This document shows, piece by piece, positions 4,695 through 64,000 of a stretch of 64,000 nucleotides of DNA. This stretch comes from Bacillus sp. (in: firmicutes) (GTDB lineage: Bacteria; Bacillota; Bacilli; Bacillales; Cytobacillaceae). The notes below the pieces were generated by a model. The model had not been told where the DNA came from and did not search any database. It saw nothing but the letters and a program-made list of their open reading frames with translations. How positions within the stretch are numbered: the stretch's first letter is position 1; each line of letters begins with the position of its first letter. The position numbers and the translations under genes are program-made. The stretch lies in NCBI GenBank assembly GCA_011524525.1, contig WTKE01000108.1, positions 120,550 to 184,549 of the forward strand, written 5' to 3'.

Positions 4695-4785
4695 GACCTG
4701 GCAACCTGACGACCATTCGCTTTTAACAAGCGATTAGGCTCACGGCTTTGCGTCCTTCCCTTTCGGAGAAGTTTGCCTTTTACAG
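4695..4785 (-). promoter_or_regulatory. c-di-GMP-I (GEMM-I) riboswitch
   Basis: On the minus strand the leader contains the GEMM-I signature in order: GGCAAAC, a P2 helix capped by a GAAA tetraloop (CTCCGAAAGGGAAG), GGACGCAAAGCC, then CCTAA and AATGG flanking a hairpin (the 11-nt tetraloop receptor), and closing GGTTGCC. These are the conserved ligand pocket and docking elements of the class I c-di-GMP aptamer. A TATAAT -10 box lies just upstream (4796-4801). The start codon is about 45 bases downstream. A small hairpin (GGTCTCA / TGAGCC) and a CGGCTTGC segment complementary to the aptamer GCAAAGCCG could form the expression platform; the direction of control cannot be read from sequence alone. 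Confidence 0.88.
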
Positions 4786-4834
4786 TTTTTCTTTTATTAT
4801 ACTTTATTCGGGTAGACTTTTGCCTCAGGTACTT

Positions 4835-24126: not shown

Positions 24127-25380
24127 TTATCTTTTTGATAATACTTCTGTTTCGTATGTTTTTACTTCTTCTAACCAAGCCTCTTTTACAGGGACACCCA
24201 TTTGTTCACAATAGTAATCCCAAATGGCTCCAAATGGATAGGTTTTGAATTCTTCCATTAGGGCTAATCTTTCGGTGAAATTGCCTTCTTCTTGAAGCTG
24301 TTTTAATTTTTCGTTTGGCACAAGCATCGCGTATAACAGTGCCTTCACCATGTTTCTTGTACCGATTGTCCATGCCGCTACACGGTTAATACTTGCATCA
24401 AAGAAATCAAGACCGATAATGACTCGATTCAGTGCATCATTACGAACAATTTCAAGGGCAATTTCTTTTAGTTCGTCATCTAAAATCACGACATGGTCAC
24501 TATCCCAGCGTACCGGTCTTGAGACGTGAAGAGCTACCTTGTCACTATATAAAAGCATCGAAGAAATTTTGTTGGATACCGTTTCTGTTGGATGGTAATG
24601 ACCTGTATCAAGCAAGCAGATTTTATCGTTCTTTAATGCATAGCCTAGGTAGAATTCATGAGAGCCGACCACATACGATTCAGAACCAATTCCAAATACT
24701 TTGCTTTCTACCGCATCCAGATTGTATGACTCATCAACGGGTACAGCAAAAATTTTATCTAAAGAGTCCTTTAAGCGCTGTCTTGGAGTCAATCTGTCAC
24801 TAGGGATATCCTTGTAGCCATCTGGAATCCAAATATTTGTTAACGCTGGAGTTCCAAGTTCTTTTCCGAAATACTCCCCAATTTTTCTACTTCCGATACA
24901 GTGATTAATCCAAAATTCACGGATTCCTTCATCTGGATGTGAAAGAGTTAATCCATCGGATGCTTTTGGATGTGAGAAAAGAGTTGGGTTATAATCTAGC
25001 CCTAATCCTTGTTCCTTCGCCCAAGCTACCCAATTTTCAAAGTGCTTTGGCTCTAGCTCATCACGTTCCACTACTTCTCCGTTTGTTTCTGCGTAGATCG
25101 CATGAAGATTGACACGGTGCTTACCAGGAATGAGTGAAAGTGCTTTTTCTAGGTCGCTACGCAATTGCTCAGGTGTCGTTGCCTTGCCAGGGTAGTTCCC
25201 AGTTACATCAATTCCTCCAGAGAGCTCGCTAGGATTTACTTCAAATCCTCCCACATCATCGCCTTGCCAACAGTGGATAGAAATAGGTACAGATTTTAGT
25301 TTTTGTAATACGTCTTCTACATCGATTCCCCATTTTGAGTATGCTTGTTTTGCTAGTTCAAAGTTTTCCTTAATCGTCAT
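24127..25380 (-). CDS. rhaA: L-rhamnose isomerase
   Basis: A 417-residue protein, the normal length of RhaA, which interconverts L-rhamnose and L-rhamnulose in the cytoplasm using two divalent metal ions. Recognisable family segments include [17 protein letters not shown] near residue 32, [53 protein letters not shown] and [18 protein letters not shown]; the Asp/His in LLDTGHYHP and LDFFD supply metal ligands. GAGAGGAAG precedes ATG 25380. It follows rhaB by 18 bp in one operon. Confidence 0.96.
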
Positions 25381-25398: not shown

Positions 25399-26820
25399 TT
25401 ATGAGTTTGCTACTGATTTAGTAGGTTCGTATTTTTTTACTTCAAAAGATTGTTTTATAACAGAACGTGCTTCCTGTAGATCCGAAAATTCTCCTAATGC
25501 CATTAGTTGAGCTACGATATTCCCGATAGCTGTTGCTTCAATCGGACCAGCGAGCACTTCTTTGTTTGTCACGTCCGCGACAAGCTGATTCAGCATTTCA
25601 TTTTGACAGCCACCACCGATGACATTGATCTTGTCAAAAGACTTTTCAAAGATGCTTTCAATTTCTCCAATGGTTTCTTTATAGCTAGCTGCTAGACTGT
25701 CATACACACATTTCGCCACTTCCCCAGGTGTATTAGGAACACTTTGTCCCGTCTCGATGCAATAATTCATGATTTCTTGAATCATGTTGTCCGGCTTTAA
25801 GAATCGATCATCGTTGACATTAACGATTGCCCAGAAGTCTCCTGCCTCTTCTGCGAGTTCTACCAGTCTAGCGAACGAGTACTCATGATTGTAGTTGCGC
25901 TTAACCTCTTGAATCATCCATAGCCCCATAATATTTTTCAAGAAACGGAAGCGATAGTCGATACCGCCTTCATTCGTAAAATTGTAGTCTAGCGCTTTAG
26001 TGACACAGATCGGGAAATGATTCTCCGTCCCCATTAACGACCAAGTTCCTGAACTAATATAAATGGTACTCTCCTCTTCTGGTACAGAGATGACCGCCGA
26101 TCCGGTATCATGTGTGGCAGGGAGTATCACGTTCATATCAAAGCCAAGCTCTGTTACTAGCTCTTCCTTTAAGTTCCCTAGAATGGTCTTTGGCATCTGG
26201 ATTTCATGGAACATTTCCTTATTTATGCCTAAAATATCTAACAGCTCGTAATCCCATTTTTTTGTAAAAGCATTAACTAGCTGTGTGGATGTTGCATTTG
26301 TATACTCGTTCGATTTTTTCCCGGTTAGTAAAAAGTTCAAATAATCCGGTACCATTAAAAAGGACTTTGCTTTTTCTAAGATGTCAGGATGGTTTTTTTT
26401 CAAGGAGTATAGCTGGTAAATCGTGTTGAACTTTTGAAATTGAATCCCTGTTTCTAGATAGAGTCGTTCTTTTGAGATGATTTGGAATACCTCTTCCATC
26501 ATGCCGTCGGTTCGCGGATCACGGTAGGACACGGCCTCCGTAAGTGGCTGATCATTTTCATCTAGTAGGACAAAATCAACCGCCCATGTGTCAATCCCGA
26601 TACTATCAGGTTGGATACCAAGTTCACTGCACTTTATTAATCCTGTTTTAATTTCATCAAACAGTCGATCGATCTCCCAGCAAAAGTGGTTCCCTTTTTG
26701 CACAATCTTATTTTCAAATCGATATAATTCACGTAACTGTAATTGTCCATTTTCTCTATGGCCCAACATTAATCTGCCACTTGAAGCACCAATATCAACA
26801 GCAATACTGTACTTGTTCAT
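25399..26820 (-). CDS. rhaB: Rhamnulokinase
   Basis: A 473-residue FGGY-family kinase that phosphorylates L-rhamnulose to L-rhamnulose-1-phosphate. It shows the N-terminal VDIGASSGRLMLG phosphate loop, GIDTWAVDFVLLD, PATHDTGSAV and YISSGTWSLMG, and near the C-terminus INVIGGGCQNEMLNQLVADVTNKEVLAGPIEATAIGN. ATG 26820 lies 8 bases after AAGGAG; an in-frame TTG at 26826 is less likely. It heads the rhaBA operon, and a cre box overlaps the leader just upstream. Confidence 0.96.
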   Translation of the reverse strand: MNKYSIAVDIGASSGRLMLGHRENGQLQLRELYRFENKIVQKGNHFCWEIDRLFDEIKTGLIKCSELGIQPDSIGIDTWAVDFVLLDENDQPLTEAVSYRDPRTDGMMEEVFQIISKERLYLETGIQFQKFNTIYQLYSLKKNHPDILEKAKSFLMVPDYLNFLLTGKKSNEYTNATSTQLVNAFTKKWDYELLDILGINKEMFHEIQMPKTILGNLKEELVTELGFDMNVILPATHDTGSAVISVPEEESTIYISSGTWSLMGTENHFPICVTKALDYNFTNEGGIDYRFRFLKNIMGLWMIQEVKRNYNHEYSFARLVELAEEAGDFWAIVNVNDDRFLKPDNMIQEIMNYCIETGQSVPNTPGEVAKCVYDSLAASYKETIGEIESIFEKSFDKINVIGGGCQNEMLNQLVADVTNKEVLAGPIEATAIGNIVAQLMALGEFSDLQEARSVIKQSFEVKKYEPTKSVANS

Positions 26821-26838
26821 CCTCAACGCTCCTTTTGG

Positions 26839-26925: not shown

Positions 26926-27575
26926 GAAAAGCGGAAGTAGCTTGTTCAGGGGCGACAGGCATAAGACGAATCGCGCAGGAAGGCCTGCCTTCTGGAGCGA
27001 GTTGGCTTATGACCCGAGCCCCTAGCTACTGGAGCTGGACAGAGAAAAGCGGAGCGGACTGTTCTGACCCGACAAGCATAAGGCGAGCCCTGGCGGAAAG
27101 CCTGCTTTCCAGAAGGGATTGACTTATGACCGGGGAATAAAGGGTTCAATTTATTCCTTCGAGGGTCAAGGAGGGGGAGCTGGACAGAGAAAAGCGGAAG
27201 CAGCTTGGTCAGCTCCGACAGGCATAAGACGAAGACCGAAAGAGGTCCTGACCTCTGTAGGGCTTTGGCTTATGACCCCGAGGAGCTAGCTGCTGGAGCT
27301 GGACAACGAAAAGCGGAAGGGCCCGTTTAGCGACCTATGGACTCCTCGAAAAAGTTTTATGACGTGTATGCTTTTATTTGCCTGGCTTTCACGTCATAAA
27401 CCCTTTCTTATAACGCGTACGCCTCTGTTTTTTCCAGCTCTCGTGTCATAAACCTCTTCTTATGACACATATTCCTCCATTTTTCCGGCTTTCACGTCAT
27501 AAGCTCATGCTTCCCTTCGAGCGGAGCTGGACAACGAAAAGCGGAGGCAGCTTGACCAGGGGCGACAGGCAAAAG
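26926..27575. repeat. Block of about five extragenic hairpin repeats
   Basis: Copies begin GAAAAGCGG at 26926, 27044, 27189, 27308 and 27536. Full copies are 118-145 bp and end GGAGCTGGACA. Each contains CATAAG...CTTATG and outer arms such as GTAGCT/AGCTAC (copy 1) and GCAGCT/AGCTGC (copy 3), so pairing is kept while bases change. Copy 4 is interrupted by about 190 bp that holds three related CACGTCATAA/TTATGACGTG segments. Copy 5 is truncated. No plausible gene; track ORFs here are shadows of the repeats. Confidence 0.85.
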
Positions 27576-27620: not shown

Positions 27621-27646
27621 ACTGGCCGAAATTGCATTCGGCCAGT
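27621..27646. terminator. Bidirectional terminator, twin of the one at 48839
   Basis: ACTGGCCGAA / TTCGGCCAGT with a 6-base loop and T-runs on both sides. On the minus strand it ends the AraC transcript beyond the 20-bp repeat array. Confidence 0.9.
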
Positions 27647-27732
27647 GCCTTTTTGTTGCTTTGGAGAGTTATTTAACCAAATTAGATTACTTTTGAAACA
27701 AAATCCTTTGCTCTTCATTCGGTTTTTTTGAG

Positions 27733-27972
27733 TTTATTTGCGATTTCAGGGATATATTTGCGATTCTGAACTTTTATTTGCGATTCCAGAAATTTATTTG
27801 CGATCCTGAACTTTTATTTGCGATTTCAGGGATTTATTTGCGATTCTGAACTTTTATTTGCGATTCCAGAAATTTATTTGCGATCCTGAACTTTTATTTG
27901 CGATTCCAGAAATTTATTTGCAATTCTGAACTTTTATTTGCTATTTGCGACTCAAGAAATTTATTTGAAGCT
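27733..27972. repeat. Tandem array 1 of a 20-bp unit (TTTATTTGCGATTCCAGAAA)
   Basis: About twelve copies, ten in strict 20-bp register (27733, 27753 ... 27913), the last two degenerate. The TTTATTTGCGAT core is nearly constant. The second half alternates between CAGAAA/CAGGGA and TGAACT types, giving a duplicated 80-bp higher-order unit (27733-27812 and 27813-27892). It lies between the AraC stop codon and its terminator, so it is expected to be transcribed as a 3' untranslated region. Confidence 0.92.
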
Positions 27973-27984
27973 GAACCACAAAGT

Positions 27985-28953
27985 TCATCTGCTCTTCTTC
28001 TCCACCCGATAATCCTTTGGAGTTTTTCCATATTTGCTTTTGAAAATCCGGTAGAAGTAGCTCATGTTGTCGTAGCCGACTTCATCAATGATTTTTGTAA
28101 TCGGCATTTCGGTTCTTTCTAAAAACTCTTTTGCTTTCGTAAGGCGTTTCTCCTGCAAAAGCTCCTTAAACGTATACTTCGTCGCTTGCTTGATTTGCTT
28201 ACTTACCGCGTAGTGAGGCTGATTCAATTGCTCAGCCAACTCATAGAGTGAAGCATTTTGGTAATGTTCATCAATATACTTCATTGTCTCAACAAGGATA
28301 TAGTGATGTTCGGTGCTTAGTTCATTTTGCTTTAATTTATCTGTGTGCTTTAAAAGCTCTATCATCAAAAGCCCCATATAAAGCTTTAAAGTAGACTCTG
28401 AAAATAACGATGGTTCCATGATTTCATCGATCATCTTCTTAATTAACTCTTGAATAGCCTCCACATGGGTAACAGCAAAGTACAAGTATTGTCCATTCTG
28501 CGTGTGATTATAGAGACTGTTAATAATGAAGTTACTCATTAAGTTGGTAGAGGATAAATAGGAAAAAATAAAATCAAAGAATTTCGGCTGAATGATAAAA
28601 TTAATGATTATATCCTCTTTTGCACAAGCTTCAATTTCGTGTTCAATATGCTGATTCAAAAATAAAAGCTCGCCCTGCTTCAAGTGAACATTCTCCGTTC
28701 CAACCTTCTGCTTTAACTCACCATGAAACACGTAATTAATTTCGATATAATTGTGGCGATGCTTGGGAAAATCAATAAATCGGGTATGTTTTCTCAGCAT
28801 TATCATCTCTTTCGGATTCAAGAACTTCTCACTTTCAATAATAAAAGACGTTTGATTCGTATAAAGGTCTTTTTTGATTTCACTACTTTGCTCGAGAATC
28901 ATCTGTTCTTCTTCTGTCATTTCCATCAAGGTTTCAAGAAGATCATTTCCCAT
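27985..28953 (-). CDS. AraC family regulator with cupin sensor domain
   Basis: A 322-residue protein: N-terminal cupin-like sugar-sensing half (FIDFPKHRHNYIEINYVFHGE, LKQGELLFLNQHIEHEI) and C-terminal AraC double HTH (ASLYELAEQLNQPHYAVSKQIKQ, then ITKIIDEVGYDNMSYFYRIFKSKYGKTPKDYR). ATG 28953 follows GAGGTG; the longer track start is not needed. It is paralogous to the AraC gene at 53425 (shared LISEF/LMSNF and NGQYLYF/NGRYLYF segments). The target is not visible; it may act on rhamnose or rhamnoside genes in this region. Confidence 0.88.
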   Translation of the reverse strand: MGNDLLETLMEMTEEEQMILEQSSEIKKDLYTNQTSFIIESEKFLNPKEMIMLRKHTRFIDFPKHRHNYIEINYVFHGELKQKVGTENVHLKQGELLFLNQHIEHEIEACAKEDIIINFIIQPKFFDFIFSYLSSTNLMSNFIINSLYNHTQNGQYLYFAVTHVEAIQELIKKMIDEIMEPSLFSESTLKLYMGLLMIELLKHTDKLKQNELSTEHHYILVETMKYIDEHYQNASLYELAEQLNQPHYAVSKQIKQATKYTFKELLQEKRLTKAKEFLERTEMPITKIIDEVGYDNMSYFYRIFKSKYGKTPKDYRVEKKSR

Positions 28954-29000
28954 ATTACACCTCATGAACGTGATTTGTGTTGTCTTTAGTTTAATATAAA

Positions 29001-45513: not shown

Positions 45514-46984
45514 ATTTTATTTCCTTAAATTGACCTGGCTTGATCCCAACATGCTTTTTAAAAAGCTCGGAGAAATGTCTATAGCTGTGATAACCAACTA
45601 ACTCACTTACCTCAGCAACCTTTTTCCCCTCTGTCAAAAGCTTCTTCGCTTTTTCCATTCGCAACTGGGTTAAGTATTTGATATACGACTCACCCATTTC
45701 TTCTTTGAATAAGAGGCTAAGATAGGTAGCATTCATCCCCACATGTTCTGATACATCTTGGAGGGTTAGGTCTCTAGTAAAATTCGCTTGTATAAAGGAA
45801 CAAGCACGTTCAACCGCTTCATGCTTATAAGTCGAGCGAATAGTAATAGAAGCATCCGTGATCTTCTCCAGTTGATCGAAAACCCAAGCGAACATATCCT
45901 CCTTTGTTTGACATTTGCGAATATCAAGATGTGGCATATAGGTTGGCCATGTTTTATTTGGATCAAACCCGGTCTCTTTTAGAACTTCTAACCCGAGATA
46001 GACAAGCTTTAGGATATCACGTTCAAAGACGTCCGGATGAATCCTTTTTCTTTCTAACTGACCGATTAAATTATTCAACTGTTCTAATAATCCCTCTTTA
46101 TCACCTGCTCGAATATGGAACATGACGGCTTGTTCATGTTTTGATAAGTCGCTACTATAGCTTGGATGTTCTCCAATATCCTCAAAACGATACCAATCTA
46201 GTTCATTCATAAACTGGGCATATCTAAGGGCATGAAGGGCTTCATGGTAACTTTTATGGATGTTTAGGATATTGGAATACATTTTTCCCGAGCCCACGGT
46301 CACTCCTGCCTCTTCCGACCATTTCCTTAAGTTCCCCCATAAGTTCTCTTCATCTTTTATCAAATGGCACAGTACCAACAGGTTCTCTATTCCATTTTGA
46401 AGAGGGATCATTCGATGGCCCTCAATTGGTTCAGGGAGTGGAACAGGTGAGGAAAGGGCCAGAACAGTTACCCCTTCAATCGTTTTTTCCCCTTGACCAA
46501 AAAGCTCTCTCCACTGTAACACATCACCTTTTCCAAGTAATAAATGTAACGTCTCTTTTTCTAGCCTTTCCTTCTGGCTGTTATCTTTTAACACATTGAC
46601 CGTTTCTTGTTGCGTGATTCGGGTGAGTGTTTTTTCTAAGGCTTCTTTTATGATAGGTATTGTAATCGGCTTCTCTAAGTAATCTACTACACCTAGTCGT
46701 AAGGCCCTTTTCACATAGTCAAACTCATTGAATCCACTGAACACAATACATTGCGTATCAGGTGCTTCCTTTAAGATTTCCTCTATTACCTGTAAGCCAT
46801 CTTTTCCTGGCATTCGTATATCTGTAAAAACGATATCTGGTCGATGCTCATGAAAGATTTGAAGAGCCTCTTCGCCATCAGCAGCCGTTCCCACTAGCTC
46901 AACTTCATACTCAGCCCAATCTATCATTCGTTCTAGACCCTTTAGTACGATAAATTCATCATCAAAAATGACTGCCTTCCGCAA
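45512..46984 (-). CDS. YesN-type response regulator (AraC output), system 1
   Basis: A 490-residue regulator: receiver (FDDEFIVLKGLERM, phospho-acceptor in DIVFTDIRMPGKDGL, EKPI lysine), a middle linker domain, and a C-terminal AraC double HTH (LTLQDVSEHVGMNATYLSLLFKEEMGESYIKYL, VAEVSELVGYHSYRHFSELFKKHVGIKPGQF). The TTG start at 46984 is supported by GGGGG 8 bases upstream. It overlaps the kinase gene by 23 bases. It likely activates the CUT1 operon directly downstream. Confidence 0.9.
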   Translation of the reverse strand: MRKAVIFDDEFIVLKGLERMIDWAEYEVELVGTAADGEEALQIFHEHRPDIVFTDIRMPGKDGLQVIEEILKEAPDTQCIVFSGFNEFDYVKRALRLGVVDYLEKPITIPIIKEALEKTLTRITQQETVNVLKDNSQKERLEKETLHLLLGKGDVLQWRELFGQGEKTIEGVTVLALSSPVPLPEPIEGHRMIPLQNGIENLLVLCHLIKDEENLWGNLRKWSEEAGVTVGSGKMYSNILNIHKSYHEALHALRYAQFMNELDWYRFEDIGEHPSYSSDLSKHEQAVMFHIRAGDKEGLLEQLNNLIGQLERKRIHPDVFERDILKLVYLGLEVLKETGFDPNKTWPTYMPHLDIRKCQTKEDMFAWVFDQLEKITDASITIRSTYKHEAVERACSFIQANFTRDLTLQDVSEHVGMNATYLSLLFKEEMGESYIKYLTQLRMEKAKKLLTEGKKVAEVSELVGYHSYRHFSELFKKHVGIKPGQFKEIK

Positions 46985-48740
46985 GCTCTTGACCCCCTTT
47001 ATCCTCTCGAAAACGAATTTCTACTTTTGTTCCTTCGTTAACTTTACTCGAAACGGTAAGCTCACTCTTTTCTCCATAACAGAGGAATAAACGCTCCCTC
47101 ACATTTTGCATACCATAACCCGTTCTGGTGACATCGAGGTCGGCAATTCCTACCCCATCATCCTCTACGGTAAAAATAACCCAACCGTCCTCGAGGCGAC
47201 CGGTTAATGTAATCGTTCCTTTTCCAACCTTAGGCTCAAGCCCATGATAGATTGAATTCTCCACTAATGGCTGAAGAAGTAATTTTAGAATCTCTTTATC
47301 TAGTAGAAGTGGATCTACTTCCTCCACATACACAAAGCGGTAATTAAAGCGTAAGTTTTGAATCGTTAGATAGTGTTTTATATGCTCTAGTTCTTTGGAG
47401 ACAGGAATCATGTCCTTCCCATTATTTAAGCTTAACTTAAAGGTTTCAGAAAGGGCCACGGCCATCTTTGCTACCTCATGATTATTTTCTAGCTCTGCCA
47501 TCCAATACATAGAATCGAGAGTGTTATAAAGAAAGTGAGGCTTAATTTGCGCTTGTAACGCTCGAAGTTCGGCCTCTCTTTCTTTTAATTGCACACGGAT
47601 TAACTCCTCATTCAACGCTTTATTCTCACCCGTTATTTTTTGAAAAGTCTGCCCAATCGCTCCGATTTCATCAGTTGGAGTATCGGTTTCCGAGGGTTGT
47701 AAGAGACCATTTGTCCACTCTGCAGCCATTTTCCTCAACCGAACAATAGGATTGGATAGCGTTTCCGATAGTAAAAACGAGAAGACGAATGCAACAATGG
47801 CAATAACAGACGCAATCGATATCGTCACATTCCGTATCTGATTGGATTGCTTTAACAACTCTTTTTCATTAATCACATGAGAAAACGTCCAACCAGTGAT
47901 TCGATTCTGATAATCCGTGACGATATATCCTTGATTTTTCAACTCCTCTAATGGAGAGACCTCCCTATTGGACAACTCTTCTACCTGAAAAGAATTTGGG
48001 TATCGGTACACATCCCTGTAAATCCCCTGTGAATCGTCCAAAATCAGAAAGGCACTATTTTCACTTTTTTTAAACACTCTCGAAAAGATTGATTTATTAA
48101 TATTCACAACTAGCAAACCTGTAGTAGTAGGATCATAGAATTCTCCTGGGTCTTTTAGTAGCTTTACAGATGAAAAAGTCTTACTAGATTTATTTCCTTG
48201 TAACACATTATAGCCGTAGAAAATGGCTTTCCCATCCTTTTGGACAGCATCCCTATACCAATCTGTATCTTCTATATATTCATGAAAGCCACCATTTCCA
48301 TATCTGCCATAGCTTTCAGACTTCCCATAACACATTCCTTGAAAATTCACATTGAATATACAAACTGATTCGATGTCTTGTGTATCTATTAAACTACTTG
48401 CCAGATGATCCTGCAGCCTTCGAAGCGATCCGTTGTCGACCAATCTTCCCCCTGCCACATCAAGGGTCACACTTTCTTTTAGCTCTTTTTGGACATCCTT
48501 ATTCCATGTGATAATTCGCTCCATATTTATGACGTTACGAAATAATAAGTCCGCAACTTCACTCGAAGTTTCTAAATGGTTTTGTATCGTTGCCGTCTGG
48601 TTTTTAACCAATAAATCCTTTGTAATATTAAAAGAGACAAAACCAAGTCCCATTAAAGGGCCAATAGAAAGAGCCAGAATTAAGGTGAAATTTCTGTACC
48701 TATATTTTTCGTTTTTAATCTTTTTGAAAAGCGCTTTCAT
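46962..48740 (-). CDS. YesM-type sensor histidine kinase, system 1
   Basis: A 592-residue membrane kinase: TM1 (FTLILALSIGPLMGLGFV), extracytoplasmic sensor domain, TM2 (VTISIASVIAIVAFVFSF), HAMP, the His_kinase domain QAQIKPHFLYNTLDSMYWM (phospho-accepting His) and an HATPase with NSIYHGLEP and VEDDGVGI. ATG 48740 follows AAAGGTG at 9 bases. It signals to the overlapping YesN-type regulator and probably senses a rhamnose-containing sugar. Confidence 0.9.
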   Translation of the reverse strand: MKALFKKIKNEKYRYRNFTLILALSIGPLMGLGFVSFNITKDLLVKNQTATIQNHLETSSEVADLLFRNVINMERIITWNKDVQKELKESVTLDVAGGRLVDNGSLRRLQDHLASSLIDTQDIESVCIFNVNFQGMCYGKSESYGRYGNGGFHEYIEDTDWYRDAVQKDGKAIFYGYNVLQGNKSSKTFSSVKLLKDPGEFYDPTTTGLLVVNINKSIFSRVFKKSENSAFLILDDSQGIYRDVYRYPNSFQVEELSNREVSPLEELKNQGYIVTDYQNRITGWTFSHVINEKELLKQSNQIRNVTISIASVIAIVAFVFSFLLSETLSNPIVRLRKMAAEWTNGLLQPSETDTPTDEIGAIGQTFQKITGENKALNEELIRVQLKEREAELRALQAQIKPHFLYNTLDSMYWMAELENNHEVAKMAVALSETFKLSLNNGKDMIPVSKELEHIKHYLTIQNLRFNYRFVYVEEVDPLLLDKEILKLLLQPLVENSIYHGLEPKVGKGTITLTGRLEDGWVIFTVEDDGVGIADLDVTRTGYGMQNVRERLFLCYGEKSELTVSSKVNEGTKVEIRFREDKGGQELAEGSHF

Positions 48741-48838
48741 TTTTATCATCACCTTTTGAGCGAAGAAGTTTGTCGAATCTTTTTTAAGTAACTATAATAC
48801 ATAGATTTCGGGAATGCTATGGTTTTTTTAATAAAAAA

Positions 48839-48864
48839 ACTGGTCGAAATTACATTCGACCAGT
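48839..48864. terminator. Terminator, twin of the one at 27621
   Basis: ACTGGTCGAA / TTCGACCAGT, same loop and flanks as 27621-27646 with paired base changes. On the minus strand it is followed by TTTTTTT and ends the transcript of the rhamnosidase beyond the 20-bp repeat array. Confidence 0.9.
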
Positions 48865-48949
48865 ACTTTTGGAGGCTCTATAGGGTCATTTAACGTTGTT
48901 AAATCCCTTTTGGAACTAAATTGTGCTCTTGAGAACTTCTTTTCAGGTG

Positions 48950-49109
48950 TTTATTTGCGATTATAAGGATTTATTTGCGATTTCTGAAATTTATTTGCGA
49001 TTTCTGAAATATATTTGCGATTCCAAATTTTTATTTGCGATCCTGATTTTTTATTTGCGATTCCTGAAACTTATTTGCGATCTCAACCATTTACTTGCTA
49101 TTTAATACA
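48950..49109. repeat. Tandem array 2 of the 20-bp unit
   Basis: Eight copies in exact 20-bp register (48950, 48970 ... 49090), TTTATTTGCGAT plus a variable TCTGAAA-like half. The last copy is degenerate and contains the stop codon of the rhamnosidase gene. Unit, period and position relative to stop codon and terminator match array 1 at 27733. Confidence 0.92.
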
Positions 49110-51871
49110 CATTTTTCAGCATACTCAATCTGGTGAATTCCACTTCCAACAACAAACTTTACTTTCCCTTCGCTTATATAGGTCATGAATTCACTACTAC
49201 CTTTGATATCCACATGTTGAGGAAGGATGACGGTTGCTGTTGTGTTGGTTGGTACCTCAATTTCCAATTGAACCGTATGATTGTTTTTGCTCCATGACGA
49301 AGAAAGGATCCCATAACCTGTTCTAAGTTTTGCTTTTGCAAAAGATAATCCACAATCGGTATGGGGTTCGATGATGCTCGTTTTGTATCCAGGTTGATCA
49401 TGTTTGATACCGGCAATATGTCTATATAGCCAATCACCAATACATCCAAATGCATAATGATTAAATGACATATGGCCAACCGTTCCATCCGTTGTGATCG
49501 CTGACCATGATTCCCAAATCGTAGTTGCTCCCTTTTCGACTTCATAAAGCCAAGAAGGACATTCTGTTTGATAGAGTAGTCGATAGGCGAGATCGGCATG
49601 GCCTTCTTCACACAACACATCCATTAAATAAGGGATCGATAGGAATCCCGTATCAAGCTTATACCCATTCTCCTTAATTAATTCAACTAATTGGTTGACC
49701 ACCAGCGAACGTTTTTGCTCAGACACCATATTCATTTGCAGAGCCAAAATATATATCCCTTGAAAATGCGAGCTTATTCTCCCTTGATCATCCACATACT
49801 CTTCCTCAAAAGCTTTTCTAATTTGGCTATTCAAGTTTTTGTACATAGACTCCAGTTCGGAATTCCCAAGGACTTTTAAAATTTCGGCTAAAAGGAGTGT
49901 TGAATTTGCATAAAAGCACGTTGCCACTAGTTCTTTTGTCCGAATCGCACTTTCCATCGGATTTTTTATGCTCGGTATTAACCAATCTCCAAAATGGAAT
50001 CCTGTATTCCATAAGTATTTTTGCCTTTCCAAACGAATAGGATCTCTGTCATCTAGATCGTCTGGAATCTCCGTCTCTGCTTTTTGACGAACATAACTCA
50101 TCCATTTGGTCACGGCTTCAAAATTCTCTTCTAAAATCCGCTTATCCCCATATCTTTCGTATAATACCCAAGGAACGATAAGGATGGCATCGCCCCACCC
50201 GGCACTCGAAAGCTGTCCCCCATTTGCTGTACATTCTGGCTCGTAATATTTTCCTGTTGGTACAAAATTGGCGATTTGACCATCTGGAAATTGTTCTAGA
50301 CGGACATCAACCAACCACCTAGTTAAGAAAGAATCAACATCCATATTAAAGGCGGCTGTTGGAGCAAATACCTGAATATCCCCCGTCCAACCTGCTTTTT
50401 CTCGTTGAGGACAGTCTGTCGGAATCGATAACATATTCGTCTTTTGACTCCATTGGATGTTTTGCTGTAATTGATTAATTCTGCCGTCAGAACACTCGAA
50501 ATGGCCCGTTGTTTCCATATCACTATATAATACGATCGCTTTTACATCTGTTTTTTGAATGTCATGTGGATGACCGGTTACACGCACATATCGGAAACCA
50601 TGATAGGTAAAGCTTGGTTCATAGGTTTCCATTCCATTTCCTTTTGCGATATAGATATCTATTTGGTCTTTATTCCGACCCATTATATTCATGAAAAATT
50701 TCCCGTCTTGATCCAATACCTCGCTATGTTCCATACAAATGGTCGTGCCCCGCGGAACATTCATGTTTATACGAATACGTCCCGCAATAATCTGACCAAA
50801 GTCAATAATTTGCGCTCCATCCTCTTCACGGTGGATATTTAATGGTAGTAATTCCTCCATCGCTTTTACACTTGGTCCATATTGAACCGTAAGATTTTCG
50901 AGTGAGTAATCCACACGATTGACCTTAGACCAACCAGATGCATCAAAATTAGAACAACTCCAATCATCCTGCTCGAGTCTTGCGTCATATTTTTCACCAA
51001 TAAATAGGTCAGAATATTGCCATGGTCCAGAACTTGAGACGAAGTTTTCATCAGAGGTTATGATTTTTGTTGTTCCGTCCTCGTATTCCATTTCTAATTG
51101 GAGCAATATTCCTAGTTTGTTTCCATATTGACAGCTATGACCTGTTAATTGAATCCGCCCGATATACCAGCCATCTGCCACTATTACACCCATTACATTG
51201 TCGCCATTTTGAATAAACTGTGTGACATCATAGGTTTGATATTGCAGATGAACATTGTAAGCTGTGAAATCTGGTGCAAATTCTATGTCTCCTACCCTTT
51301 GTCCGTTCAGTTCCAATTGATAGATTCCATGACTGGTTACATAGACTCTTGCCTTTTTGACTTTTTTTTCAGCCGTAAAAGGACGTCGCAACAACTGAGG
51401 AGGTTGAAGATTCTTCACTCTTTCCTCGAGACTTTCTGCCTTTAGGCCACCAGAAAAGATTTCTTTGATCGTGATAAAATCTTCCTCAATGGCTTCTTGT
51501 TGCTCAGGCTCCATCCAGCTTGCCAGCCAATCTTCCGGGTTTAACAATCCCATTTCCCACGATGCAGGCTGACTCCAATCAGATTCTCTGCCTTGGTTAT
51601 CCCACACTTTCACTTTCCATTCATATCGCTTACGTGACTGTAAGGGAGTTCCCTGATAATCAATCCAAAGTGATTGGTCACTCTTTACTTTTTCCGTATT
51701 CCATACTACGGTTCCATCTTCATCCGTTACTAGTACGTGGTAAGCTGTTTGCAAAATAGGATGTTGCTCCGTTTGAATCCACCAACTCAATCGAGGGGTA
51801 ACAACATCTATTCCTAACGGTTGTTTCTGACTTTCTACCGTAAGATTTTCAACCCTTAGACCCCTATCCAT
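49091..51871 (-). CDS. Alpha-L-rhamnosidase (GH78), second enzyme
   Basis: A 926-residue cytoplasmic GH78 enzyme: N-terminal beta domain (SQKQPLGIDVVTPRLSWWI), carbohydrate module, and barrel with SIPTDCPQREKAGWTGDIQVFAP, WNTGFHFGDWLIP, GATTIWESWSAI and FNHYAFGCIGDWLYRHIAG. One catalytic-loop difference from its 979-residue paralogue is REKAGWTGD for RDERLGWTGD. ATG 51871 overlaps the stop of the symporter gene by 8 bases; the ribosome site (GCGGTG) is modest. It forms an operon with the GPH symporter and probably hydrolyses the glycoside that symporter brings in. Confidence 0.93.
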   Translation of the reverse strand: MDRGLRVENLTVESQKQPLGIDVVTPRLSWWIQTEQHPILQTAYHVLVTDEDGTVVWNTEKVKSDQSLWIDYQGTPLQSRKRYEWKVKVWDNQGRESDWSQPASWEMGLLNPEDWLASWMEPEQQEAIEEDFITIKEIFSGGLKAESLEERVKNLQPPQLLRRPFTAEKKVKKARVYVTSHGIYQLELNGQRVGDIEFAPDFTAYNVHLQYQTYDVTQFIQNGDNVMGVIVADGWYIGRIQLTGHSCQYGNKLGILLQLEMEYEDGTTKIITSDENFVSSSGPWQYSDLFIGEKYDARLEQDDWSCSNFDASGWSKVNRVDYSLENLTVQYGPSVKAMEELLPLNIHREEDGAQIIDFGQIIAGRIRINMNVPRGTTICMEHSEVLDQDGKFFMNIMGRNKDQIDIYIAKGNGMETYEPSFTYHGFRYVRVTGHPHDIQKTDVKAIVLYSDMETTGHFECSDGRINQLQQNIQWSQKTNMLSIPTDCPQREKAGWTGDIQVFAPTAAFNMDVDSFLTRWLVDVRLEQFPDGQIANFVPTGKYYEPECTANGGQLSSAGWGDAILIVPWVLYERYGDKRILEENFEAVTKWMSYVRQKAETEIPDDLDDRDPIRLERQKYLWNTGFHFGDWLIPSIKNPMESAIRTKELVATCFYANSTLLLAEILKVLGNSELESMYKNLNSQIRKAFEEEYVDDQGRISSHFQGIYILALQMNMVSEQKRSLVVNQLVELIKENGYKLDTGFLSIPYLMDVLCEEGHADLAYRLLYQTECPSWLYEVEKGATTIWESWSAITTDGTVGHMSFNHYAFGCIGDWLYRHIAGIKHDQPGYKTSIIEPHTDCGLSFAKAKLRTGYGILSSSWSKNNHTVQLEIEVPTNTTATVILPQHVDIKGSSEFMTYISEGKVKFVVGSGIHQIEYAEKCVLNSK

Positions 51872-53204
51872 TAATAACACCGCTTTCAATTGTTTGACTC
51901 TTTGATGGTTTTGTTTTATAGAAAAGCATCAACACAGAAAATAAAAGTGCACAAACTGCTGGAATTAAAGCAGAAGTAACCAGAATTCCTTCTAAACTTT
52001 GAGCGGTTGGCGCGCTGCCTGCTTGATATCCATAAGCTGCTAGAACAAAACCGGCAAGTCCACCGGAAAGCGATGAACCAAGTTTTTGAATAAAGTTATA
52101 AAGAGAATAATAGACTCCTTCAATATGCAACCCATTCTGTCTGACAGAGTAAGAGATGGCATCAGGTAGCGCTCCCCAAGCAGCAAACATGACCAATCCC
52201 GTTAATGCTCCAGCAAAAATATTAAGAACTAAAACCATTGGAGCCATATTTACAGGGGTGAAATAGATTAACAGGAAGTCAATGACCGATAAAGCACCAA
52301 TTAAAATATAAAAGTTTCTTATTCCGATACGAATAGCAATAGCCGGTAACACGAGAGTTAGAACTAAACCAATAATTCCTCCAAGACCAGAAACGACACT
52401 AAACAAATTCGGATTGCCGACATTGTAAATAAAATAGTAAATGCCAGAAGCTCCTCGAATACCTAGACTTAATTGAGCTAATAAAAAAGAAGCAGCTAAG
52501 ATTAAAAATGGTATATTGGTTCCTACTGTTTTGATAGCTAACTTAAATGGAATCTGTTCTCTTTTTTCATTCTCTATCACTTTCTCAGCTGTCCCTTTAA
52601 AACAGAGAAGAATCAAAATAATAGATAAGACTCCAATAAAGGCTCCCATAAAGAAATAGCCAGTCTTTGGACTTGGAAATAACCCTACGATGGGTACGGC
52701 AATCGTACCTGCAATGGCTGCCGATAAACCTGAAAACAAAACGAGATACTTCGTCAAGTGCGTTCTTTCTTGAACATTGTCCGTCATAACCGTGTTTAAT
52801 GCGGCATGAGGAATACTGACAATACTATACAGGATACTGATTAACAAATATAAAGTGAAAGCGTAAAACACCTTACCTGTTTCAGTAAAATTTGGTGCAT
52901 AAAACAAAAGCGCTGTGGCAATTCCGTACGGGACTGCTCCAAACAGTAGGTAAGGTCTCATCTTCCCCCACTTCGATTTGGTTTTATCCACTAAAAATCC
53001 AAACGGTAGGTCAAAACCCGCATCAATCAGGCGTACGACTAACAAAATAGTCCCTGCAGTTGCTGCTGGGATTTTAAGTACATCCGTATAAAAGTACATA
53101 ATGTACATCGATATAAAAATATAAACAATATCCTTCCCAAATGCACCTGAACCAAAAGCTAATTTTTCTTTTAATGATATACTACCGGCTTCTTTTCCCT
53201 TCAT
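51864..53204 (-). CDS. GPH family sugar:cation symporter
   Basis: A 446-residue 12-TM transporter of the glycoside-pentoside-hexuronide:cation symporter group, with the N-terminal KLAFGSGAFGKDIVYIFISMYIMYFYTDVL, RLIDAGFDLPFGFLVDKTKSKWGKMRPYLLFG and the later DAISYSVRQNGLHIEGVYYSLYNFIQKLGSSLSGG. It resembles YicJ/UidB-type carriers of glycosides. Start ATG 53204 with GGGGG 8 bases upstream. It is divergent from an AraC regulator and coupled to a rhamnosidase gene, so it likely imports a rhamnoside. Confidence 0.9.
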   Translation of the reverse strand: MKGKEAGSISLKEKLAFGSGAFGKDIVYIFISMYIMYFYTDVLKIPAATAGTILLVVRLIDAGFDLPFGFLVDKTKSKWGKMRPYLLFGAVPYGIATALLFYAPNFTETGKVFYAFTLYLLISILYSIVSIPHAALNTVMTDNVQERTHLTKYLVLFSGLSAAIAGTIAVPIVGLFPSPKTGYFFMGAFIGVLSIILILLCFKGTAEKVIENEKREQIPFKLAIKTVGTNIPFLILAASFLLAQLSLGIRGASGIYYFIYNVGNPNLFSVVSGLGGIIGLVLTLVLPAIAIRIGIRNFYILIGALSVIDFLLIYFTPVNMAPMVLVLNIFAGALTGLVMFAAWGALPDAISYSVRQNGLHIEGVYYSLYNFIQKLGSSLSGGLAGFVLAAYGYQAGSAPTAQSLEGILVTSALIPAVCALLFSVLMLFYKTKPSKSQTIESGVING

Positions 53205-63885: not shown

Positions 63886-64000
63886 GTCCGAATCGACCAC
63901 TCTTTCGGACTCAAAATCTACTCGCATAAACTTTCCTGTCCGTATCAGACCCTCTTTCGGACTCAAAATCTACTCGTATGAACTTTCCTGTCCGTATCAG
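63886..64000. repeat. 52-bp tandem repeat at the right edge
   Basis: GTCCG(A/T)ATC begins copies at 63886, 63938 and 63990 (52-bp period). The body TTTCGGACTCAAAATCTACT is identical in the two full copies. The array runs out of the window. No coding frame is convincing. Confidence 0.85.

Follow-up and report, generated by a model that had tools for sequence, protein, structure and literature searches.

Two tandem arrays in the window

What is a tandem array of 20-bp units doing between the stop codon of a rhamnosidase gene and a hairpin terminator, and why does a similar arrangement occur a second time in the same stretch of DNA? The window in question comprises 64,000 nucleotides of a Bacillus sp. 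assembly (G000) that is 67% complete and whose same-genus relatives include Robertmurraya korlensis. Array 2 (48950..49101, + strand) has eight units, each consisting of a core TTTATTTGCGAT and an 8-bp spacer at an exact 20-bp pitch; its last unit is degenerate and overlaps the stop codon of a gene for an alpha-L-rhamnosidase (Bac_rhamnosid6H; 49091..51889, - strand), the 3' end of which abuts the array. On the other side stands a sensor histidine kinase gene (46962..48752, - strand), preceded by an intrinsic-terminator-like hairpin (48839..48864, - strand; 10-bp stem and T run, ACTGGTCGAA..TTCGACCAGT) and a linker or leader (48865..48949, + strand) that joins hairpin to array and has homologues in the linkers at four further loci, so that the order on the - strand is rhamnosidase stop (in the last unit), array, linker, hairpin terminator. 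Array 1 (27733..27944, + strand) has 11 units with the same core and pitch, a linker (27647..27732, + strand) that aligns with that of array 2, and a hairpin (27621..27646; ACTGGCCGAA..TTCGGCCAGT) that is terminator-like on both strands. The unit and the 20-bp period, described in an earlier sequence-only reading, are confirmed at both places, as is the judgement that they are not chance low-complexity sequence: with at most one mismatch, the 12-mer core has 23 matches in the window, against 0.92 on average and never more than 3 in dinucleotide shuffles. The placement described there (rhamnosidase stop, array, terminator) holds for array 2 but not for array 1, where the gene is an AraC-family regulator (27985..28965, - strand) with its 3' end 40 bp from the array; the next gene past array 1 encodes an FGGY carbohydrate kinase (RhaB-like; 25399..26826, - strand), after which comes RhaA (24127-25380).

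The window also contains 52-bp tandem repeats at 27385-27502, adjoining array 1, and at 63886-64000, which belong to the other constant-length class of tandem repeats (51-53 nt) of PMC8161180. A c-di-GMP-I riboswitch is located at 4697-4787 (- strand; Rfam RF01051, 73.9 bits).

Arrays at other loci in Robertmurraya

The window's genome has approximately 12 array loci, and the chromosome of G002, a complete Robertmurraya genome, has 16. Alignment of flanks places an array at the orthologous position of G002 for 9 of the 12 arrays of G000, and in R. korlensis or G004 for the other three. An absence of further copies and of conservation in related strains, which the sequence-only reading had named as the outcome that would count against it, is contradicted by these orthologous arrays in G002 and R. 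korlensis. The copy-number variation that it had proposed to look for is also present: array 2 has eight units in the window and five in R. korlensis, beside a leader that is 96% identical and coding DNA that is 87-91% identical, and array 1 has 11 units against 19 in its G002 orthologue. Unit number changes by whole 20-bp steps. The leader was considered as a constrained element and rejected, being 96% identical in R. korlensis at array 2 but only 64-67% at array 1.

Arrays are nearly absent from G001, a complete genome of the same genus in which only two loci have any, one of these amounting to no more than a degenerate pair of units. Its PBP locus is a clean empty site, at the place where G000 has a leader of ~56 bp, a 212-bp array and a further ~11 bp, with an overlap of ~4 bp at the junction. 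The proposed check for target-site duplications thus rests on this one empty site, which fits either gain accompanied by a short duplication or microhomology-mediated loss. Because G001 is nearly without arrays and its PBP locus is empty, the arrays are dispensable at the genus level. Downstream of the PBP gene of R. korlensis (L232), a single core unit TTTATTTGCGAT is found just after a terminator, at the locus where G000 has 11 units and G002 has 36; it is either a seed or a remnant.

The hairpin and linker

The terminators of the two window loci are homologous, as previously proposed, differing by a paired change of C-G to T-A, and both score as terminators of the - strand; a second compensatory change, G-C to A-T, was read from the alignment in R. 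korlensis. The linkers are likewise homologous, with the segment CTCTAGAG / TATTTAAC common to both. A hairpin followed by a CTCTAGAG..TATTTAAC linker lies upstream of the G002 arrays at 335k, 374k, 472k and 524k as well as at both window loci, and since the array at 524k is the orthologue of array 1, hairpin, linker and array occur together at five non-orthologous Robertmurraya loci. In the window's genome the hairpin pattern has two matches only, at the two window loci. The view of these sequences as one repeated module is upheld insofar as the combination recurs at five loci, but it is not a matter of two copies only, nor is the hairpin the defining part, because it is absent from most arrays and has decayed in two copies (G002 335k and 472k) while the arrays there persist. 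An intrinsic terminator does not accompany each array. The array is the constant, general part; the hairpin module is real, yet not defining.

Architecture of the repeat unit

The pitch is exactly 20 bp in 312 of 320 Robertmurraya intervals, most of the rest being multiples and two being one base off 20. It is 20-21 bp in G301 and in Gottfriedia-like genomes and 18 or 21 bp in Ureibacillus, and gaps in other genera are mostly 18-21 or 39-42 bp, with next to none between. Among 288 units cut by phase, identity within arrays is 0.951 for the core versus 0.558 for the spacer, a comparison somewhat in favour of the core in that arrays were detected by their cores; information per position is 1.4-2.0 bits across the 12-mer core and 0.15-0.98 bits across the spacer. 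Many arrays have 40-bp higher-order repeats. Because spacers drift without insertions or deletions while the core is conserved, the pattern points to constraint acting on the core and on the spacing alike.

Two ideas about secondary structure were rejected. Alternating spacers such as CCTGGAAA and TTCCAGAT look convincing by eye as hairpins, but the complementarity of adjacent spacers is no better than that of controls (p=0.07; p=0.84 with order permuted), and pairing between the left and right flanks of an array does not score higher with its own flank than with another (p=0.67). The flanks of Robertmurraya arrays (100 bp on each side, for example L071 and L084) have a GC skew of +0.21 on the left and -0.47 on the right in the orientation of the array, negative on the right in 35 of 37, an asymmetry that flank-flank pairing does not explain.

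Gene context

In three genomes, with 14-16 array loci apiece, the arrays are intergenic. With genes called as open reading frames without annotation, so that single flanks may be wrong, arrays avoid divergent gaps, where promoters lie (2/44 arrays versus 58/253 in the background, p=0.004), and favour convergent ones (14/44 versus 33/253, p=0.003) and the 3' ends of genes. Their other neighbours include genes for a penicillin-binding protein, glycerate kinase, cytochrome bd, YwhD, CAP and NERD proteins; with arrays adjoining genes of so many kinds, the link of both window copies to rhamnose, to which the sequence-only reading had drawn attention, is incidental. At several loci terminator-like sequences (A-runs and hairpins) were seen by eye between gene and array.

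Orientation relative to replication

The strand of the arrays was compared with the direction of replication in three complete or near-complete genomes of three families (G002, G301 and G388), with arrays merged to loci and with origin and terminus located by gene order and GC skew. In G002, where dnaA-dnaN-recF-gyrB-gyrA at base 1 marks the origin and skew puts the terminus at ~2.75 Mb, most arrays to the right of the origin have the - strand orientation and most of those to its left the + strand orientation; G301 has the same pattern, based on skew. The array strands of G388 switch near 1.1-1.4 and 3.5-4.2 Mb, and its terminus and origin were predicted from these strands before the skew was computed, which then gave ~1.15 and ~3.8 Mb. 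Altogether, array strand follows replication at 41 of 46 loci (13/16 in G002, 15/16 in G388 and 13/14 in G301; p=4e-8), and in draft genomes local GC skew predicts it at 20 of the 22 loci where |skew|>0.05. TTTATTTGCGAT is on the strand opposite to the local leading-strand sense, and so the GCGAT end is the first that a fork reaches.

Because genes are mostly co-oriented with replication, transcription is plainly the confounder to consider. At tandem loci, the ratio of antisense to sense arrays is 21:2 beside codirectional genes versus 1:4 beside head-on genes (Fisher p=0.003); four of the five loci with head-on neighbours conform to the replication rule, as do 15 of 16 in convergent and divergent gaps. 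As a control, copies of an IS256-family element inserted inside arrays have no clear polarity (5/8 on the leading-strand sense). Array polarity follows replication, not transcription. This orientation result makes a role of the array in the mRNA of the upstream gene, which the sequence-only reading had suggested testing by removal, unlikely. The leading strand has a general AT skew, with which the A-rich strand of the unit agrees; this bias is mild and is unlikely to be the cause of a 90% strand bias of a 12-mer.

The five loci that break the rule do not differ clearly from the others in array size (means of 5.8 versus 7.4 units, medians of 6 versus 5). One of them is old and degenerate, with the "wrong" orientation, and is conserved, spacers as well, in four Robertmurraya species (L090:5407-5578, L098, L110, G003:C1:868.8k). 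It lies between a terminator and the ribosome-binding site of a gene of TetR type, its first unit is entered by a promoter-like TTGAAA-17-GATAAT, and it has possibly been co-opted as an operator. Clustering of arrays near the origin was rejected as a general rule, since it is pronounced in G002 but only mild in G301 and lacking in G388; because of these differences, no single chromosomal address is implied. A search of the open-access literature found no report of replication polarity for such arrays.

An IS256-family element that inserts into the units

The chromosome of G301 contains eight full copies (L202, L204, L207, L208, L210, L211, L212, L213) of a 1382-bp IS256-family element with a 391-amino-acid transposase. 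All eight are inside array units, in both orientations, and seven have an exact 8-bp target duplication. The element is apparently site-specific for the repeat unit, and since every copy sits inside a unit, the array units are recognisable targets in living cells.

Distribution beyond Robertmurraya

Arrays built on the TTTATTTGCGAT core, with a pitch of 18-21 bp, also occur in Ureibacillus, in Gottfriedia and related Bacillus strains, and in Cytobacillus, Planococcus, Metabacillus and Neobacillus. Sampling across the order yielded arrays in 13 of 399 genomes, with a reversed control pattern nearly silent, and their occurrence among genera is patchy. Metabacillus niabensis and Bacillus sp. J37 (L044 and L059) appear to have an array at the same place, between open reading frames of 316 and 488 amino acids, in the orientation opposite to the skew rule. 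Searches for arrays in phage and plasmid sequence collections gave no match in either, an Rfam search at the arrays gave no known RNA family, and a literature search for the 12-mer gave unrelated matches only.

Possible explanations of the arrays

The reading that we prefer, at a probability of roughly 0.45, is that the arrays constitute a dispersed family of polar protein-binding arrays with a role in replication or in the nucleoid. The step of 20 bp, combining the near-invariant 12-bp core TTTATTTGCGAT with a variable 8-bp spacer, places successive cores, two turns apart, on approximately the same side of the helix, where a putative sequence-specific protein might bind them and pack cooperatively along the array. 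The asymmetric complex would then meet the replication fork, or a chromosome machine that tracks along one strand, from a fixed side, perhaps for fork handling or nucleoid organisation, and the placement of the arrays would avoid disturbing transcription. A bolder extension, tentative and on balance doubtful, is that this constitutes a new chromosome system of the Bacillales, in which a protein reads fork-oriented arrays of 20-bp pitch to manage forks or organise the nucleoid, that it explains the whole class of 20-21-nt satellites, and that an IS256-family transposon of one lineage evolved to target the units.

The main competing account, possible although we lean against it, is that a neutral satellite has been amplified with a strand bias: a seed unit expands or survives in one orientation only owing to differences between leading and lagging strands in slippage or hairpin bypass; orientation would then record a mutational bias rather than a function, and the shared core would reflect common ancestry and homogenisation. 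Strand-specific slippage predicts polarity relative to replication, slippage or unequal exchange typically produces 40-bp higher-order repeats such as many arrays have, unit number shifts in whole steps (8 versus 5; 11 versus 19), and arrays can be missing from a sister genome. However, drift would strike core and spacer equally, whereas spacers differ at ~44% of sites within an array while cores are 95% identical and only 2 of 320 intervals are one base off, and the occurrence of the same core in several families is unexplained unless there is recognition or transfer. A non-autonomous mobile module, made up of leader and array and mobilised in trans by a transposase or some other enzyme, could also account for the polarity if it inserted into single-stranded DNA of the lagging strand, which would fix orientation to the fork as for elements of the IS200/IS605 type; the hairpin and linker common to five non-orthologous loci and the presence or absence of the array at the PBP locus, with its ~4-bp junction overlap, are in its favour. 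It is nevertheless improbable, given that most arrays have no shared leader, that array positions are stable between species, and that no enzyme was found; the one enzyme seen at arrays, the IS256-family transposase, has the units as its insertion target, in either orientation, rather than as its cargo.

An RNA element in the 3' untranslated region of the upstream gene, or a small transcribed RNA, would suit the order of stop, array and terminator on the - strand at both window loci, and transcription into small RNAs is considered by Subirana and Messeguer (PMC8161180). The strand of the arrays is not fixed to genes, however, being sense beside head-on genes and antisense beside codirectional ones; the terminator-like sequences seen by eye at several loci would separate gene from array, spacers pair no better than order-permuted controls (p=0.84), and there is no Rfam match, all of which makes this explanation more improbable still. 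Duplication of a single rhamnose-locus module within the window, for which it could be said that G000 has no close copy of this hairpin besides the two in the window, is refuted by the ~12 array loci of G000, the 16 of G002 and the arrays of other families, and deserves virtually no credence.

Comparison with known systems

A CRISPR array was rejected as an interpretation: the 12-bp core and 8-bp spacer compare with CRISPR repeats of ~24-40 bp and spacers of ~30 bp, and the flanking genes examined have no cas-type domain. The centromere arrays of plasmids (ParR/parC-type) consist of direct repeats of ~10-20 bp, about two helical turns apart and compatible with cooperative binding. The present arrays resemble them in having direct repeats spaced by approximately two helical turns, but differ in occupying many chromosomal loci, with no adjacent partition genes seen and with a strand linked to replication. 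Chi, the KOPS/SRS sites that guide FtsK/SpoIIIE, and the Ter sites of Tus/RTP are asymmetric motifs whose strand follows the direction of replication, and they are short and occur singly or in small numbers, for the most part within coding sequence or close to the terminus. As with KOPS and Ter, an asymmetric motif here has a fixed orientation to replication (41/46 loci, and 20/22 in drafts); unlike all of these sites, the arrays are intergenic with a 20-bp pitch. To our knowledge, the TTTATTTGCGAT core matches no known replication-oriented motif and is unrelated to the motif of the STAR elements of staphylococci.

The STAR elements (PMC3532100) are similar in being interspersed intergenic direct repeats with a conserved motif, variable spacers, a variable number of units and loci that are stable within lineages, but they consist of repeats of ~50 nt at locations that differ between species, unlike the 20-bp pitch found here. 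The closest counterparts are the 20-21-nt tandem repeats of Bacillus (Subirana & Messeguer 2021, PMC8161180), characterised in that article's account of the class as constant in length, variable and species-specific in sequence, and enigmatic in function, with roles in the nucleoid or as small RNAs suggested. In common with the repeats so described, the present ones are non-coding and of constant length and pitch, with several to many arrays per genome, a short signal in all repeats and 40-nt higher-order forms. The families in that account are species-specific and without conservation of sequence, which is a description rather than a strict definition of the class and does not apply to the present arrays, where one 12-mer core is common to several families. 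The results presented in PMC8161180 include, in the portions relevant here, no strand or replication analysis, whereas orientation here follows replication. Apart from the shared core, the arrays conform to the 20-21-nt Bacillus class as published. It is this core, together with the rigid pitch and the strand fixed by replication, that offers a way to read the direction of replication from non-coding DNA and makes the puzzle of the 20-21-nt repeats testable.
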